Assembly (NCBI RefSeq): GCF_014268455.2
Contig: NZ_CP077085.1
Span: 2,583,001-2,647,000 of the forward strand
Direction: 5' to 3'
Source of the DNA: Pseudomonas shahriarae
GTDB lineage: Bacteria > Pseudomonadota > Gammaproteobacteria > Pseudomonadales > Pseudomonadaceae
Length of the DNA stretch: 64,000 bases
The notes under the pieces are model-generated. The model saw only the letters and a program-made list of their open reading frames with translations, did no database searches and was not told the origin of the DNA. Shown piece by piece: positions 42,816 through 55,241 of the stretch (position 1 is the first letter of the stretch; each line of letters opens with the position of its first letter). The position numbers were made by a program, and so were the translations under genes.

Positions 42816-42829
42816 TTGACCCGCATCAA
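42816..42829. promoter_or_regulatory. Anr/FNR box upstream of the CopD-like gene
   Basis: TTGAC-CCGC-ATCAA matches the Anr/FNR consensus TTGAYNNNNATCAA. Its centre is 70 bases upstream of the CopD-like start. The rest of the 329-base gap from the SCO gene has no gene or other strong motif. Confidence 0.75.
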
Positions 42830-42892: not shown

Positions 42893-43336
42893 ATGCTCTA
42901 TCTCCTGTTTCTGCTGGCCCATCTGTTCGCGGCGCTGATGTTTATCGGCACGGTGTTCTTTGAAGTACTGATCCTCGCCAGCGTGCACAAGCAACTGCCG
43001 GCCCGCGTCATGCTGCTGGTGGAGCAGGGCATCGGCAACCGTGCCAGGGCCTTGATGCCGTGGGTGCTGCTGGTGCTTTTCGGCGCGGGTATCGGCATGG
43101 TCTGGTTGCGCTATCTGCCGGTGCTGGCGGCGCCATCGAGTTCGGCATTCGGCGCCTTGCTGACCCTCAAGTTGATCCTCGCCGCCAGTGTGCTGATGCA
43201 TTTTTTGCTGACGGTGTGGCTGATGCGTCGTGGGCGGGTCAGCGCGGCCTATTTGCGCTTCGTTCATCTGAGCCTGTTCTGCCATATGGTCGCCATTGTG
43301 TTGCTGGCCAAAAGCATGTTTTACATCACCTGGTAA
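42893..43336 (+). CDS. CopD-family integral membrane protein
   Basis: Four-helix membrane protein of 147 residues, resembling CopD-like proteins. The start is LYLLFLLAHLFAALMFIGTVFFEVLIL, with His-containing helix 1 (AHLFAALMF); other helices include RALMPWVLLVLFGAGIGMVWL and FLLTVWLMRRG, and a further His near RFVHLSLFCHMVA. The conserved His residues fit heme or copper coordination by this family, in which no biochemistry is certain. GAGG precedes ATG 42893. An Anr box upstream suggests low-oxygen induction. It precedes the HemN pair. Confidence 0.78.
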   Translation: MLYLLFLLAHLFAALMFIGTVFFEVLILASVHKQLPARVMLLVEQGIGNRARALMPWVLLVLFGAGIGMVWLRYLPVLAAPSSSAFGALLTLKLILAASVLMHFLLTVWLMRRGRVSAAYLRFVHLSLFCHMVAIVLLAKSMFYITW

Positions 43337-43357: not shown

Positions 43358-43371
43358 TTGATGCATATCAA
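43358..43371. promoter_or_regulatory. Perfect Anr/FNR box upstream of the HemN pair
   Basis: TTGAT-GCAT-ATCAA is a perfect match to TTGATNNNNATCAA. Its centre is about 65 bases upstream of the first gene of the HemN pair. hemN is a known Anr target in Pseudomonas, so this is a strong support for anaerobic or microaerobic control of the pair. Confidence 0.88.
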
Positions 43372-43429: not shown

Positions 43430-44755
43430 ATGCTCACTGTCATTCATCCCGCCCGCGAGTGGCGCCTGCGCCGTGACCAAAGCGTGCTGGACCAGGGCCA
43501 GGTCGACATCGGCAAATTTCATACGGGGATCGGCTCCCTCGACCTGTTGCGCGCCATGCGCAGCAGTCGCCAGCGCCAACGCCCCTTGGCGCTGAACCTG
43601 CAATGGCCGGCGGGCCTGGTGGCCGATGACTACCTGGACGCGTTGGAGCAGGAAATCCACCTGGTCGGTTGCCACGTGGGCGGGCGCCAGCCGGTGGATC
43701 AATTCCATCTGGGCGGCGCTACCCCGGCGATGGCCGACCTGCAGCGGTTGATGGCGCACCTGCGCAGTCGCCTGCATTTTCTCGAGCATGACCAGGGTGA
43801 CTACAGCCTCGACCTCGACCCGCTGCACACCGACTGGGCGACCATGGGCCGCCTGCGTGAACTGGGCTTCAATCACATCAATATCGGCGTGTCGGATGCC
43901 AGTAGCGACGTCACACCTTCGGTGGCCGGCTATCAAGACCCGGCGCCCATCCAGTCGCTGATCGACGCGGCGCGCACCCTGGGCTTTCGCTCGGTGAATG
44001 TCGACCTCGGGTATGGCCACGCCTGGCAGACCTGCAACAGCTTTGCAGCCAAGCTGGCCAGCCTGATCGCCCTCGAGCCGGACCGCCTGCAAGTGTTCGA
44101 CTATGCCCAGGCCCCCCGGCGCTACCAGCAGCAACGGGCGCGGGCGCTGTCGTCGAATGCCGACAAGTGCGCGATGCGCGCGATCGCCTTCCAGCACCTG
44201 GAAGCTGCCGGTTATCACTACATTGGCCTGGGCCAGTTCGTACGCCCTGACGATGACCTGGCGCTGGCCCAGGAACACGGACGCCTGAGCCGCAATTGCC
44301 AGGGCTTTACCCGTCATGGTTACTGCGACCATATCGGCTTTGGCCTGGGCGCCATCAGCCAGCTCGACAACCTGTATGCGCAAAACACCGACGACCTGGC
44401 GCGCTATCGTCAGCAGTTGGACAGCGACCTGTTGCCCACCGCCCGCGGCTGGCGCTGCGAGGCGGGCGATCAGATCCGTCAGCATGTCATGGAGCGCCTG
44501 GCCTGTGACCTGGAGTTGGATATCCAGGCGCTGGAGCGCCGTTATGGTGTGATTTTTTCCCGCTACTTTTCGGCGATCTGGCCGTTGCTGGAGCATCTGC
44601 ACCAGGACGGCCTGATCGACTTGTCCGAGCGCTTCCTCTGTGTGCTGCCTGCGGGCCGGCAGCGGGTCGAAGCCCTCTGCGCGCTGTTTGACCGGGCAGG
44701 CAGCGCGGTTCCCCCTTGCTCCAACGATGAGACCATCGACCATGAAAGCGTTTGA
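43430..44755 (+). CDS. HemN-like paralog lacking the radical-SAM cluster motif
   Basis: Protein of 441 residues aligned throughout with the HemN encoded just downstream, but without its catalytic cluster. Matching segments are FHLGGATPAMADLQ (HemN: LHLGGGTPTYLDDAQ), LGFNHINIGVSD, SVNVDLGYGHA, YHYIGLGQFVRPDDDLALA and NCQGFTRHGYCDHIGFGLGAI. Where HemN has CxxxCxxC, this protein reads PLALNLQWPAGLVADD, shorter and with no Cys. It therefore should not bind the [4Fe-4S] cluster. The ATG follows GGAGG and lies under a perfect Anr box; the end overlaps the hemN start by 14 bases. A scaffold, heme-handling or regulatory partner of HemN is inference. Confidence 0.85.
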   Translation: MLTVIHPAREWRLRRDQSVLDQGQVDIGKFHTGIGSLDLLRAMRSSRQRQRPLALNLQWPAGLVADDYLDALEQEIHLVGCHVGGRQPVDQFHLGGATPAMADLQRLMAHLRSRLHFLEHDQGDYSLDLDPLHTDWATMGRLRELGFNHINIGVSDASSDVTPSVAGYQDPAPIQSLIDAARTLGFRSVNVDLGYGHAWQTCNSFAAKLASLIALEPDRLQVFDYAQAPRRYQQQRARALSSNADKCAMRAIAFQHLEAAGYHYIGLGQFVRPDDDLALAQEHGRLSRNCQGFTRHGYCDHIGFGLGAISQLDNLYAQNTDDLARYRQQLDSDLLPTARGWRCEAGDQIRQHVMERLACDLELDIQALERRYGVIFSRYFSAIWPLLEHLHQDGLIDLSERFLCVLPAGRQRVEALCALFDRAGSAVPPCSNDETIDHESV

Positions 44756-46127
44756 GTTCAACCGGGCCCTGGTGCAGAAATACGACCGCCCGGGGCCGCG
44801 CTACACCTCGTACCCGACGGCGCCGCAGTTTCATTCGGCGTTTGCCCTGGATGACTACCGGCAGGCAGTAGCGGCCAGCAACCAGGGGGCGGCCCCCAAG
44901 GCGTTGTCGGTGTACATCCACATACCTTTCTGCCAGAGCCTTTGTTACTACTGCGGTTGCCACAAGATCATCACGCGCAAGACCCATCGCGCCGTGGAGT
45001 ACCTGAGCTACCTCAAGCGCGAAATCCAGATGCAGGCCGCGCTGTTCGATCGCACGCGGCCCCTGACCCAGTTGCACCTGGGGGGCGGTACGCCGACCTA
45101 CCTGGACGATGCACAACTGGCCGAGTTGATGGCAAGCCTGGCGCAGGGCTTCAGCCTGGATACCAGCGACAACCATGAGTTTTCCATTGAGGTCGACCCG
45201 CGCACCATCAGCGTGGAACGCATCCATAACCTGCGCGGGCTGGGCTTCAATCGCCTGAGTTTTGGCGTGCAGGACTTTGATGCCGATGTGCAGGCGGCGG
45301 TCAATCGCGTGCAGAGCGAAGAGCAGATTGTGCAGTTGGTCGCGGCCGCCCGGCAGGCACGCTTCAAGTCCATCAGCGTGGACCTGATCTACGGCCTGCC
45401 ATTGCAGACCGTGGCCAGTTTCGACGTGACCCTGGGCAAGCTGATTGCCCTGCGCCCGGACCGTGTGGCGGCCTACAGCTACGCGCATTTGCCCACGCAA
45501 ATCCGCGCCCAGCGCATGATCCGCCCCGAAGACATGCCACCGCCGGAGCGCAAGCTGGAGCTGCTGGAGTTGACCATTCGCCGGCTGACCGAAGCGGGTT
45601 ATGTGTACATCGGCATGGACCACTTTGCCTTGCCCGACGACGAACTGGCCCTGGCCCGGGCCAATGGCACCTTGCAGCGCAATTTCCAGGGCTACTCGAC
45701 CCATGCCGATTGCGACCTGATCGGGCTGGGCGTGTCGGCCATCGGCAAGGTGGGCGACAGCTACAGCCAGAGCGTCAAGGAGTTGTCCCAGTACTACGCG
45801 CGGATCGACGCCGGGTTGTTGCCGGTGCAGCGCGGCTACCGCCTGAACGCCGATGACGTGTTGCGCCGGGACGTGATCAACGGCCTGATGTGCCATGGGC
45901 GCATTGACTTTGCCGGGGTCGAGGCGGGGCATGCGATCCGCTTTACCGAATACTTTGCCCAGGCGTTGTCACAGTTGGATGAGCAAGTGGCGGATGGTTT
46001 GCTGCATGTCGAGGACGATGGGGTGCAGTTGCTGCCCCAGGGGCAACTGATGGTGCGCAGCGTGGCGATGGCGTTTGATGCGTACCTGGGTGGGCAGCAG
46101 AAGGGGCAGTTTTCCCGCACGGTCTGA
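44742..46127 (+). CDS. hemN: Oxygen-independent coproporphyrinogen III oxidase
   Basis: Radical-SAM enzyme of 461 residues that decarboxylates coproporphyrinogen III to protoporphyrinogen IX without oxygen. The cluster motif is CQSLCYYCGC with Cys64, Cys68 and Cys71, plus Cys73 as in E. coli HemN. The SAM-site QLHLGGGTPTYL and the region VDLIYGLPLQT follow. The C-terminal HemN domain has DHFALPDDELALARANGTLQRNFQGYS. ATG 44742 lies inside the end of the cluster-less paralog, so translation is coupled. Anr control is likely through the upstream box. Confidence 0.95.
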   Translation: MKAFEFNRALVQKYDRPGPRYTSYPTAPQFHSAFALDDYRQAVAASNQGAAPKALSVYIHIPFCQSLCYYCGCHKIITRKTHRAVEYLSYLKREIQMQAALFDRTRPLTQLHLGGGTPTYLDDAQLAELMASLAQGFSLDTSDNHEFSIEVDPRTISVERIHNLRGLGFNRLSFGVQDFDADVQAAVNRVQSEEQIVQLVAAARQARFKSISVDLIYGLPLQTVASFDVTLGKLIALRPDRVAAYSYAHLPTQIRAQRMIRPEDMPPPERKLELLELTIRRLTEAGYVYIGMDHFALPDDELALARANGTLQRNFQGYSTHADCDLIGLGVSAIGKVGDSYSQSVKELSQYYARIDAGLLPVQRGYRLNADDVLRRDVINGLMCHGRIDFAGVEAGHAIRFTEYFAQALSQLDEQVADGLLHVEDDGVQLLPQGQLMVRSVAMAFDAYLGGQQKGQFSRTV

Positions 46128-53798: not shown

Positions 53799-55241
53799 AT
53801 GAATAATATGAAGCAGCAGGCCCAGGCGTTGTTAGGCCTGGCATTGTTGGGCGGGCTGATCGCCTCAGCGGGAACCGTTCAGGCGGGTGGTTTCATGACG
53901 CCAACCGCAAACACTGCTGGTTGGGGCCGGGCGTTTGGTGGGGGGTCGATGTTCAAGAACGACCCGTCATCGGCGTACAACAACCCTGCTGCCATGGCTT
54001 TCATTGACAAGACCATTTCGCAGTTCACCATCAACTACGCAAACATCGACATCAAATACAAAGGGTCGGCGTATGACTACGCTGGCAATCCGACGTCCAA
54101 CACGGTCTATGATCCCAATACTGGCGAGTTAACATCGACACCTCGCACCGGTAATGGCGGTCAAGGCGGCTTCGAAGCGTGGGTACCCACTGGCTTCATG
54201 GTGATCCCGATCAACGATCGTTTTGCCTTTGGTTTGAGCCAAGTGGTGCCGATGGGCGCGCGCACAACCTGGGATGAGGATTGGAAAGGTCGCGACTTCG
54301 CGGTGGACACCCGCATCGAAACCGTGGGCCTGACCGGCTCCCTGTCGTTCAAGGTCAATGATGAGTTTTCCATCGGTGGTGGTGCGATTCTCCAGCACAC
54401 CAAAGGCTTTGTGAGCCAGAACGTCGATCTGTATGCCGCTGCTGCGCAGTCGCCGGACTTCGGGATGATTCCGTTCCCGGCCGGCCAGGGCTTCGCCTTG
54501 ATGCGGGTCAAAGTCGACAATAACTCCCTGGGTTGGTTTGCGGGGATGACCTGGAAACCCACGGCGCAGGACACCCTGGGCTTGAACTATCACGCCAAGA
54601 TCAAGAACAAGCTGGAGGGAAAGTACAACATGTACGCCGATCCAGGCTCGGAAGGGCTGATGACCACCCCGGTGGTCGACGGTAAAACCCTGGTCGAGTT
54701 GGCTTACCCTGGGCTGAAACTGTATCCGGGCGGTGCCAATGCCTCCACGCAACTGGATATCCCTGCCAACGCGTCCCTGGACTGGGTACACGACTTCTCT
54801 GACCGCCTGGCCCTGGGCGCCAGTGTGACCTGGACCCAATGGTCCTCCTTCGAGGCGCTGACCTTGAAGTCCAATGGCAGCACCATCGTGTCGATCCCGT
54901 ACAAGTACAAGAACACCTGGATGTATTCGTTCGGCGGTGACTACAAACTCACGGATGACTTTACCGTGCGTGCCGGTGTGGCCTTCGACCAGACCCCAAC
55001 CCGCAACTCCACCCGTGACCCGCGTATCCCGGATGGGGATCGCACCTTCGCTTCCCTGGGCTTTGGCTACAACATCCGCGCCATTCCGGGCCTGAGCATC
55101 GACGGCGCGTATTCCCGCCAGTTTGTGGAGACCGTCAAGCTCAAGACCAAGAACGTTGACCGTCTTGGCGCAGCGTCGCTGGATGGCAAATCCGAGGCCA
55201 AGGGCGAAGTGGTCAGCCTGTCGGCTACCTACGCCTTCTGA
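53799..55241 (+). CDS. FadL/OMPP1/TodX-family outer-membrane transporter
   Basis: Outer-membrane beta-barrel of 480 residues that imports long-chain fatty acids or hydrocarbons. A signal peptide ends near GTVQAGG. The mature start carries GGFMTPTANTAGWGRAFGGGSMFKNDPSSAYNNPAAMAF, which is the FadL hatch with NPA signature; the barrel ends EVVSLSATYAF with terminal Phe. In E. coli FadL the hatch controls lipid entry. Placed next to alkB and the praB genes, alkane uptake is a reasonable role (inference). Confidence 0.92.
   Translation: MNNMKQQAQALLGLALLGGLIASAGTVQAGGFMTPTANTAGWGRAFGGGSMFKNDPSSAYNNPAAMAFIDKTISQFTINYANIDIKYKGSAYDYAGNPTSNTVYDPNTGELTSTPRTGNGGQGGFEAWVPTGFMVIPINDRFAFGLSQVVPMGARTTWDEDWKGRDFAVDTRIETVGLTGSLSFKVNDEFSIGGGAILQHTKGFVSQNVDLYAAAAQSPDFGMIPFPAGQGFALMRVKVDNNSLGWFAGMTWKPTAQDTLGLNYHAKIKNKLEGKYNMYADPGSEGLMTTPVVDGKTLVELAYPGLKLYPGGANASTQLDIPANASLDWVHDFSDRLALGASVTWTQWSSFEALTLKSNGSTIVSIPYKYKNTWMYSFGGDYKLTDDFTVRAGVAFDQTPTRNSTRDPRIPDGDRTFASLGFGYNIRAIPGLSIDGAYSRQFVETVKLKTKNVDRLGAASLDGKSEAKGEVVSLSATYAF

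Follow-up and report, generated by a model that had tools for sequence, protein, structure and literature searches.

What could a HemN-like protein do from which the cysteines of the radical S-adenosylmethionine (SAM) iron–sulfur cluster motif have disappeared, in a genome where an intact hemN lies directly behind its gene? The question is raised by a stretch of 64,000 nucleotides of the Pseudomonas shahriarae genome (assembly GCF_014268455.2, contig NZ_CP077085.1, positions 2,583,001 to 2,647,000), hereafter referred to as the window. On its forward strand, gene A (43430..44755, stop included; 441 amino acids) encodes a cluster-less HemN-fold protein, and gene B (44742..46127; 461 amino acids, read from the ATG at 44742) encodes an intact second HemN of another HemN lineage. 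A is a real, conserved protein that resembles HemN without its iron–sulfur and SAM machinery. Most likely, it is a pseudoenzyme that descends from HemN, belongs to the Anr/Dnr denitrification regulon, and has a putative role as a tetrapyrrole carrier; it is found mainly in pseudomonads that respire nitrogen oxides.

The first-pass annotation had described A as alignable with HemN with the cysteine loop replaced, and family models agree: TIGR00538 (HemN) matches residues 65-421 of A at 5e-82, and the Radical_SAM profile matches at its positions 43-154 only, the first 42, cysteines included, being without counterpart. The site of the HemN CxxxCxxC loop corresponds to residues 58-66 of A (43601..43627, forward strand), a short segment free of Cys. 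A stays below the TIGR00538 equivalog cut-off (276.1 vs 324.95 bits), and B, with 591 bits and the cluster motif CQSLCYYC at 44931..44954 of the forward strand, is the intact HemN that it had been taken for. The 14-base overlap of the two genes (44742..44755, forward strand) likewise holds, in two different frames. A comprises a HemN fold and a HemN_C domain, the whole fold being predicted. It cannot be a coproporphyrinogen III oxidase by the known mechanism of that enzyme, and many A-type proteins carry this very name in public records.

The loss of the motif extends through the family. A protein search with A found 205 proteins at E ≤ 1e-3, and none of the best 120, the protein of the window included, carries CxxxCxxC; in these homologues the loop site is occupied by a linker that varies in length and in composition, between well conserved flanks. 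A second, profile search matched 248 proteins, of which the best 120 included 56 new ones; 45 of these lack the motif, and the 11 that carry it are HemN proteins of 460 amino acids. CxxxCxxC is also absent from the A-type open frames of 80 named Pseudomonas loci and from all 27 A copies of a second genus, termed Stutzerimonas-type because near relatives found in the protein search bear that name. With a Radical-SAM-type fold and cluster cysteines lost throughout the family, A is of the pseudo-radical-SAM kind. In a class-wide search of 274 genomes, 29 of the 30 matches whose loci were examined carry CxxxCxxC, the exception being A of this genome; cluster-less relatives outside Pseudomonadaceae may still exist. 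Elsewhere in its own genome (G000:C1:3323862-3324080), a 271-amino-acid frame gave a Radical_SAM match below the cut-off, starting from profile position 24, and is possibly another relative without the cluster motif.

The changes reach well beyond the cysteines. Columns were compared between 67 HemN and 160 family members, the metagenomic sequence P0163 and five rows of at most 400 amino acids being left out, and HemN residues were numbered as in Escherichia coli via the alignment with A. Of 184 columns conserved at ≥90% in HemN, the family keeps 53 at ≥90% and has another majority residue in 75; among these 75 are the cysteines of the cluster, the YxHxPFC Tyr and His, and the positions of Q172, R184, D288, and H289. 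Thus, like HemN (TIGR00538; PDB 1olt), A has the predicted whole fold including the C-terminal domain, and unlike HemN it has the loop deleted and the Tyr/His before it changed; among the residues that we take to be SAM binders in HemN (Q172, R184, D209, and the Tyr and His of YxHxPFC), the D209 position is kept in A and the others are altered. Twelve near-invariant residues are new in the family (L37, R41, L94, R114, P155, G194, W199, K208, D224, G268, D276, and E355); in the alignment P155 falls at HemN Q172 and G268 at HemN D288, and the A of the window has S at residue 155, where the family has P. A candidate metal site, the C81-H82 pair conserved in A, was dropped because CH is mostly present there in housekeeping HemN rows too. 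The newly fixed residues, which probably lie at the active site, are more in keeping with a new role than with mere decay. Residues such as P155, G268, G194, W199, K208, and D224 could also belong to a rebuilt active site, A then being a new non-radical enzyme on a tetrapyrrole or related substrate. We consider such an enzyme improbable, as these residues could equally serve binding, no partner among the genes seen near A hints at a product, and we know of no cluster-free reaction for the HemN fold.

Selection on the two genes was estimated as pairwise ratios of nonsynonymous to synonymous substitution rates (dN/dS; NG86) in 18 selected pairs. The ratio is 0.05-0.34 for A, ≤0.23 in 17 of the 18, and 0.04-0.11 for B; A is under purifying selection, weaker than that on B. 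It might be argued that A is a decaying duplicate retained through its linkage to hemN: in 17 of 18 pairs its dN/dS is higher than the value for B, and four of the 80 named copies are interrupted (L082, L112, L113, and L114), a fifth perhaps so (L116). Shortened copies also occur in genomes G022, G052, and G323, and the copy of L111 is cut by a contig end. The reading as a decaying duplicate is hardly credible and already largely refuted by the single origin of A, its presence in two genera, its conserved upstream box, its low dN/dS, and intact copies without an adjacent hemN. The signs by which a dying duplicate was to be recognized according to the first-pass annotation, namely sporadic decay, raised dN/dS, or close relatives that keep CxxxCxxC, do not describe the family, despite the four interrupted copies.

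The distribution of A points to denitrification. In a sample of 199 genomes of the genus, where an A-type match was defined by E <1e-130 (next best, 1e-112), A occurs in 42. cNOR norB, for which the query was identified by PDB 3o0r, also occurs in 42; A is present in 39 of these and in three of the 157 norB-less genomes (G022, with a shortened copy, G032, and G071). Furthermore, A accompanies full-length nirS (E <1e-150) in 32 of 33 genomes vs 10 of 166 without it, and 27 of 29 genomes with nosZ have A. A link to copper nitrite reductase (NirK) was rejected (2/42 genomes with A vs 17/157 others; Fisher p 0.37). In the Stutzerimonas-type genus, A is found in 27 of 56 genomes; norB is found in 50 of the 56 at E 1e-60, in the incomplete genome G622, which has A, by a weaker match type only, and none of the six genomes without norB has A (Fisher p 0.02). 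That the link recurs across different neighbourhoods speaks for its reality, and the presence of A is strongly tied to denitrification and nitric oxide (NO) metabolism. B, which falls outside the Pseudomonadaceae HemN group, is itself nearly restricted to genomes with norB (38 of 40); this suggests that it is a second hemN, linked to denitrification and acquired by transfer. Seven genomes (G023, G026, G037, G043, G138, G146, and G161) gave a single weak match to A (4e-7 to 4e-9) and seem to have neither kind of HemN.

The surroundings of A were compared in 70 loci with long flanks, i.e., 69 named loci and the window. In 54 of them, A has neighbours that family models assign to nos, nir, norB, or nnrS (nos 29, nir 17, nnrS 6, and norB 5, the counts overlapping), a number that rises to 57 when clusters named in part from context (Dnr, NorC, NorD, NosY, and NirN) are added; the genome of the window has nirS, nosZ, and norB away from this locus. 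In L195 and L115, neighbours of A include NnrS, the Fe-S repair protein YtfE, NorR, a Crp-family regulator, and anaerobic ubiquinone genes; each of these assignments comes from one of these loci. The near-complete coverage of nirS genomes by A and the 17 loci with nir genes nearby could be taken to mean that A works specifically in the maturation of heme d1 or NirS. We regard this as very unlikely, since 10 of the 42 genomes with A lack a full-length nirS match, seven of these 10 having norB; an exclusive heme d1 factor was rejected on the same count.

Regulation would fit the same picture. A perfect palindromic Anr/Dnr-type box, TTGATGCATATCAA, lies upstream of A at 43358..43371 of the forward strand, with 58 bases between it and the ATG. 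The pattern TTGAYNNNNRTCAA occurs three times in the window vs 0.16 expected from shuffles; one perfect TTGAY-N4-RTCAA match (54498-54511) is probably due to chance because it lies inside an unrelated open reading frame (53799-55241). The box of A is better backed by conservation than by chance odds: all 80 named A loci have TTGA-N6-TCAA no more than 160 bp 5' of the site that corresponds to A residue 1, starting at -72 or -73 in 56 of them, and of 27 Stutzerimonas-type loci, 25 have it between -250 and +120 relative to the first Met. The Anr-type box of the earlier annotation is thereby borne out, and A is probably under the control of Anr or Dnr. Passages on hemN boxes describe Anr boxes ahead of hemN in 28 Pseudomonas species (PMC6588701) and DNR sites ahead of hemN in Burkholderia (PMC1274295), and no cluster-less form is mentioned in these passages.

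The origin of the pair was examined in a tree of 68 rows. The 16 A rows are monophyletic (100/100) and nested in the HemN group of Pseudomonadaceae (98/99), where the nearest sister of A is unsure (92/77); the nine B rows form a separate clade (100/100) outside this group, placed with HemN from other families in the class (91/85, where some forks are open). Because B belongs to a HemN lineage different from that of A, the pair is, by this tree, no local duplication; A as a copy of the adjacent B is ruled out, a correction to the first reading of the locus, and B was presumably gained by transfer. In a second tree of 44 rows, the 19 motif-less rows stand on one side of a 100/100 branch, with the metagenomic P0163 as sister of the other 18. 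P0163 keeps the loop, has G at the first two cysteines, keeps the Q172 and R184 positions, and already shows R114, D224, G268, and E355; in P0137, named Pseudomonas cavernicola, the first cysteine is the sole one kept. On the thin ground of P0163, a single sequence from one 2.3-kb contig, this suggests that the cysteines may have been lost earlier than the loop and the SAM site. P0163 (438 bits) and P0137 (355 bits) score above the hemN equivalog cut-off of 325, although at least two cluster cysteines are missing; automatic HemN naming can therefore be wrong.

The relation of A to B bears on the main rival of the carrier reading, in which A would join HemN (B, else the housekeeping HemN) as a regulatory or scaffolding partner, the mixed complex serving to stabilize HemN, to protect its cluster from NO, or to channel substrate. 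In 67 of 80 named loci B comes directly 3' of A, its start separated from the A stop by -14 to +27 bases, and co-translation is therefore likely. In the genus, 39 of 40 genomes with B have A and 39 of 42 with A have B, including genomes in which the two are not adjacent (about 14 kb apart in G180, about 28 kb in G082, and on different contigs in G187), and HemN is inactivated by NO, which also favours a partner. On the other side, B is missing at E 1e-190 from three of the 42 genomes with A; it lies 5' of A in one named locus and is absent from the examined locus in 12, one cut by a contig end; and it was not seen in five Stutzerimonas-type A loci of 13-15 kb, whole genomes of that type not having been searched for B. 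The expectation that A always precedes hemN thus fails, and A as an obligate subunit of B was rejected. Furthermore, B is of the other HemN lineage, so the pair does not go back to a single local homo-oligomer; E. coli HemN is a monomer. A partner role is somewhat unlikely.

We therefore return to A as a carrier. The loss of cysteines, loop, and SAM site, the new invariants, the distribution among denitrifiers, and the usual adjacency to hemN in Pseudomonas can be read from the sequences themselves. Denitrifiers produce NO and yet need heme under anoxia, and a protein with the HemN fold in which NO finds no cluster is well suited to be a carrier or chaperone of tetrapyrroles under NO. Briefly, a Pseudomonadaceae hemN copy lost all three cysteines of the cluster together with the loop and most residues of the SAM site, retained the predicted HemN fold, and acquired new near-invariant residues; A would bind a tetrapyrrole (coproporphyrinogen, protoporphyrin, or heme) without radical chemistry, and the bound tetrapyrrole would be carried or protected so that heme reaches the denitrification hemoproteins despite NO, to which A would offer no cluster to destroy. 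According to the passages on NO in PMC9576991, NO inactivates purified HemN, viperin, and fumarase in vitro at similar rates, and HemN-like heme carriers, HemW and CgdH2, are described in passages of PMC10320005. We assign a probability of roughly 0.4 to A being a neofunctionalized pseudoenzyme that serves as a tetrapyrrole carrier or protector and keeps the heme supply going under NO. In a still more tentative form, A would be a component of the heme pathway that is proof against NO, derived from a HemN and now serving, in the presence of NO, as a carrier dedicated to tetrapyrroles or as a new catalyst that acts on them without radical chemistry. For the oxygen sensor that had been suggested earlier, nothing in the analysis argues.

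Several observations weigh against the carrier role, besides the higher dN/dS of A and its interrupted copies. The heme-binding motif of HemW, HNxxYW, is found in none of 165 motif-less proteins. The His of YxHxPFC, presumably one heme ligand of CgdH2, is Q in 108 and H in 36 of the 160 members. In E. coli HemW, as a passage of PMC10320005 has it, the cluster is required for heme transfer and not for binding. The tie to denitrification has its gaps: norB occurs without A in three of 42 genomes of the genus (G013, G017, and G054) and in 23 of 50 Stutzerimonas-type genomes; in G052, where norB and nirS are present, the A frame is matched to residue 368 only; and 16 of the 70 compared flanks, that of the window included, hold no family-named denitrification gene. 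Finally, the genomes share ancestry and are not independent samples, and the p values overstate independence.

HemW (TIGR00539) retains the cluster motif, unlike A. It gives a functional precedent for a HemN-like heme carrier (in the passages of PMC10320005), but A is no HemW, lacking HNxxYW and scoring 64.2 against the TIGR00539 cut-off of 205.4 bits. CgdH2 of Campylobacter jejuni, as described in the same source passages, is HemN-like, has no oxidase activity, binds heme, and receives it from ferrochelatase; it retains LYxHxPFCxxxCxxCxF, which A does not. PsgB (TIGR04419), by its NCBIfam name a HemN-related, non-iron pseudo-SAM protein, is a pseudoenzyme of the same kind as A, but A does not match TIGR04419 even at E 10; A was therefore rejected as a PsgB, and the two are probably of separate origin. 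A as ChuW/HutW was likewise rejected (TIGR04107, 51.6 vs the cut-off of 400 bits). HemF is the cluster-free isozyme of HemN and has an unrelated fold. One step can be served in the same cell by a cluster enzyme and by a protein without a cluster (passages of PMC9576991); HemF is oxygen-dependent (passage of PMC10548856). In the open-licence literature, searched by title and the start of the abstract, no paper about an A-type protein was found, which does not show its absence from print.

Upstream of A, gene 1 (42893..43336, forward strand) encodes a hydrophobic protein of 147 amino acids, with family unassigned, present in 65 of the 70 compared A loci; searches of Pfam, NCBIfam, and PDB gave no usable match. 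Gene 1 sometimes adjoins nnrS, and in the window it has an Anr/Dnr-type box of its own, TTGACCCGCATCAA (42816..42829, forward strand), upstream with 63 bases between it and the ATG. In five Stutzerimonas-type loci (L149-L153), an open reading frame near A is conserved in all five, with a SIR2 family match in L149.

Strongly linked to norB and preceded by a conserved box, A is a candidate missing part of denitrification, and it raises the question of how heme is made and delivered via an NO-sensitive cluster enzyme while the cells themselves produce NO. A HemN-related pseudo-SAM protein is already known by name in PsgB; the family of A offers a stepwise case of the passage from a radical-SAM enzyme to a pseudoenzyme. 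If the NO-proof reading is true, A would be a previously unrecognized component of denitrification, with a sister sequence midway between enzyme and pseudoenzyme.
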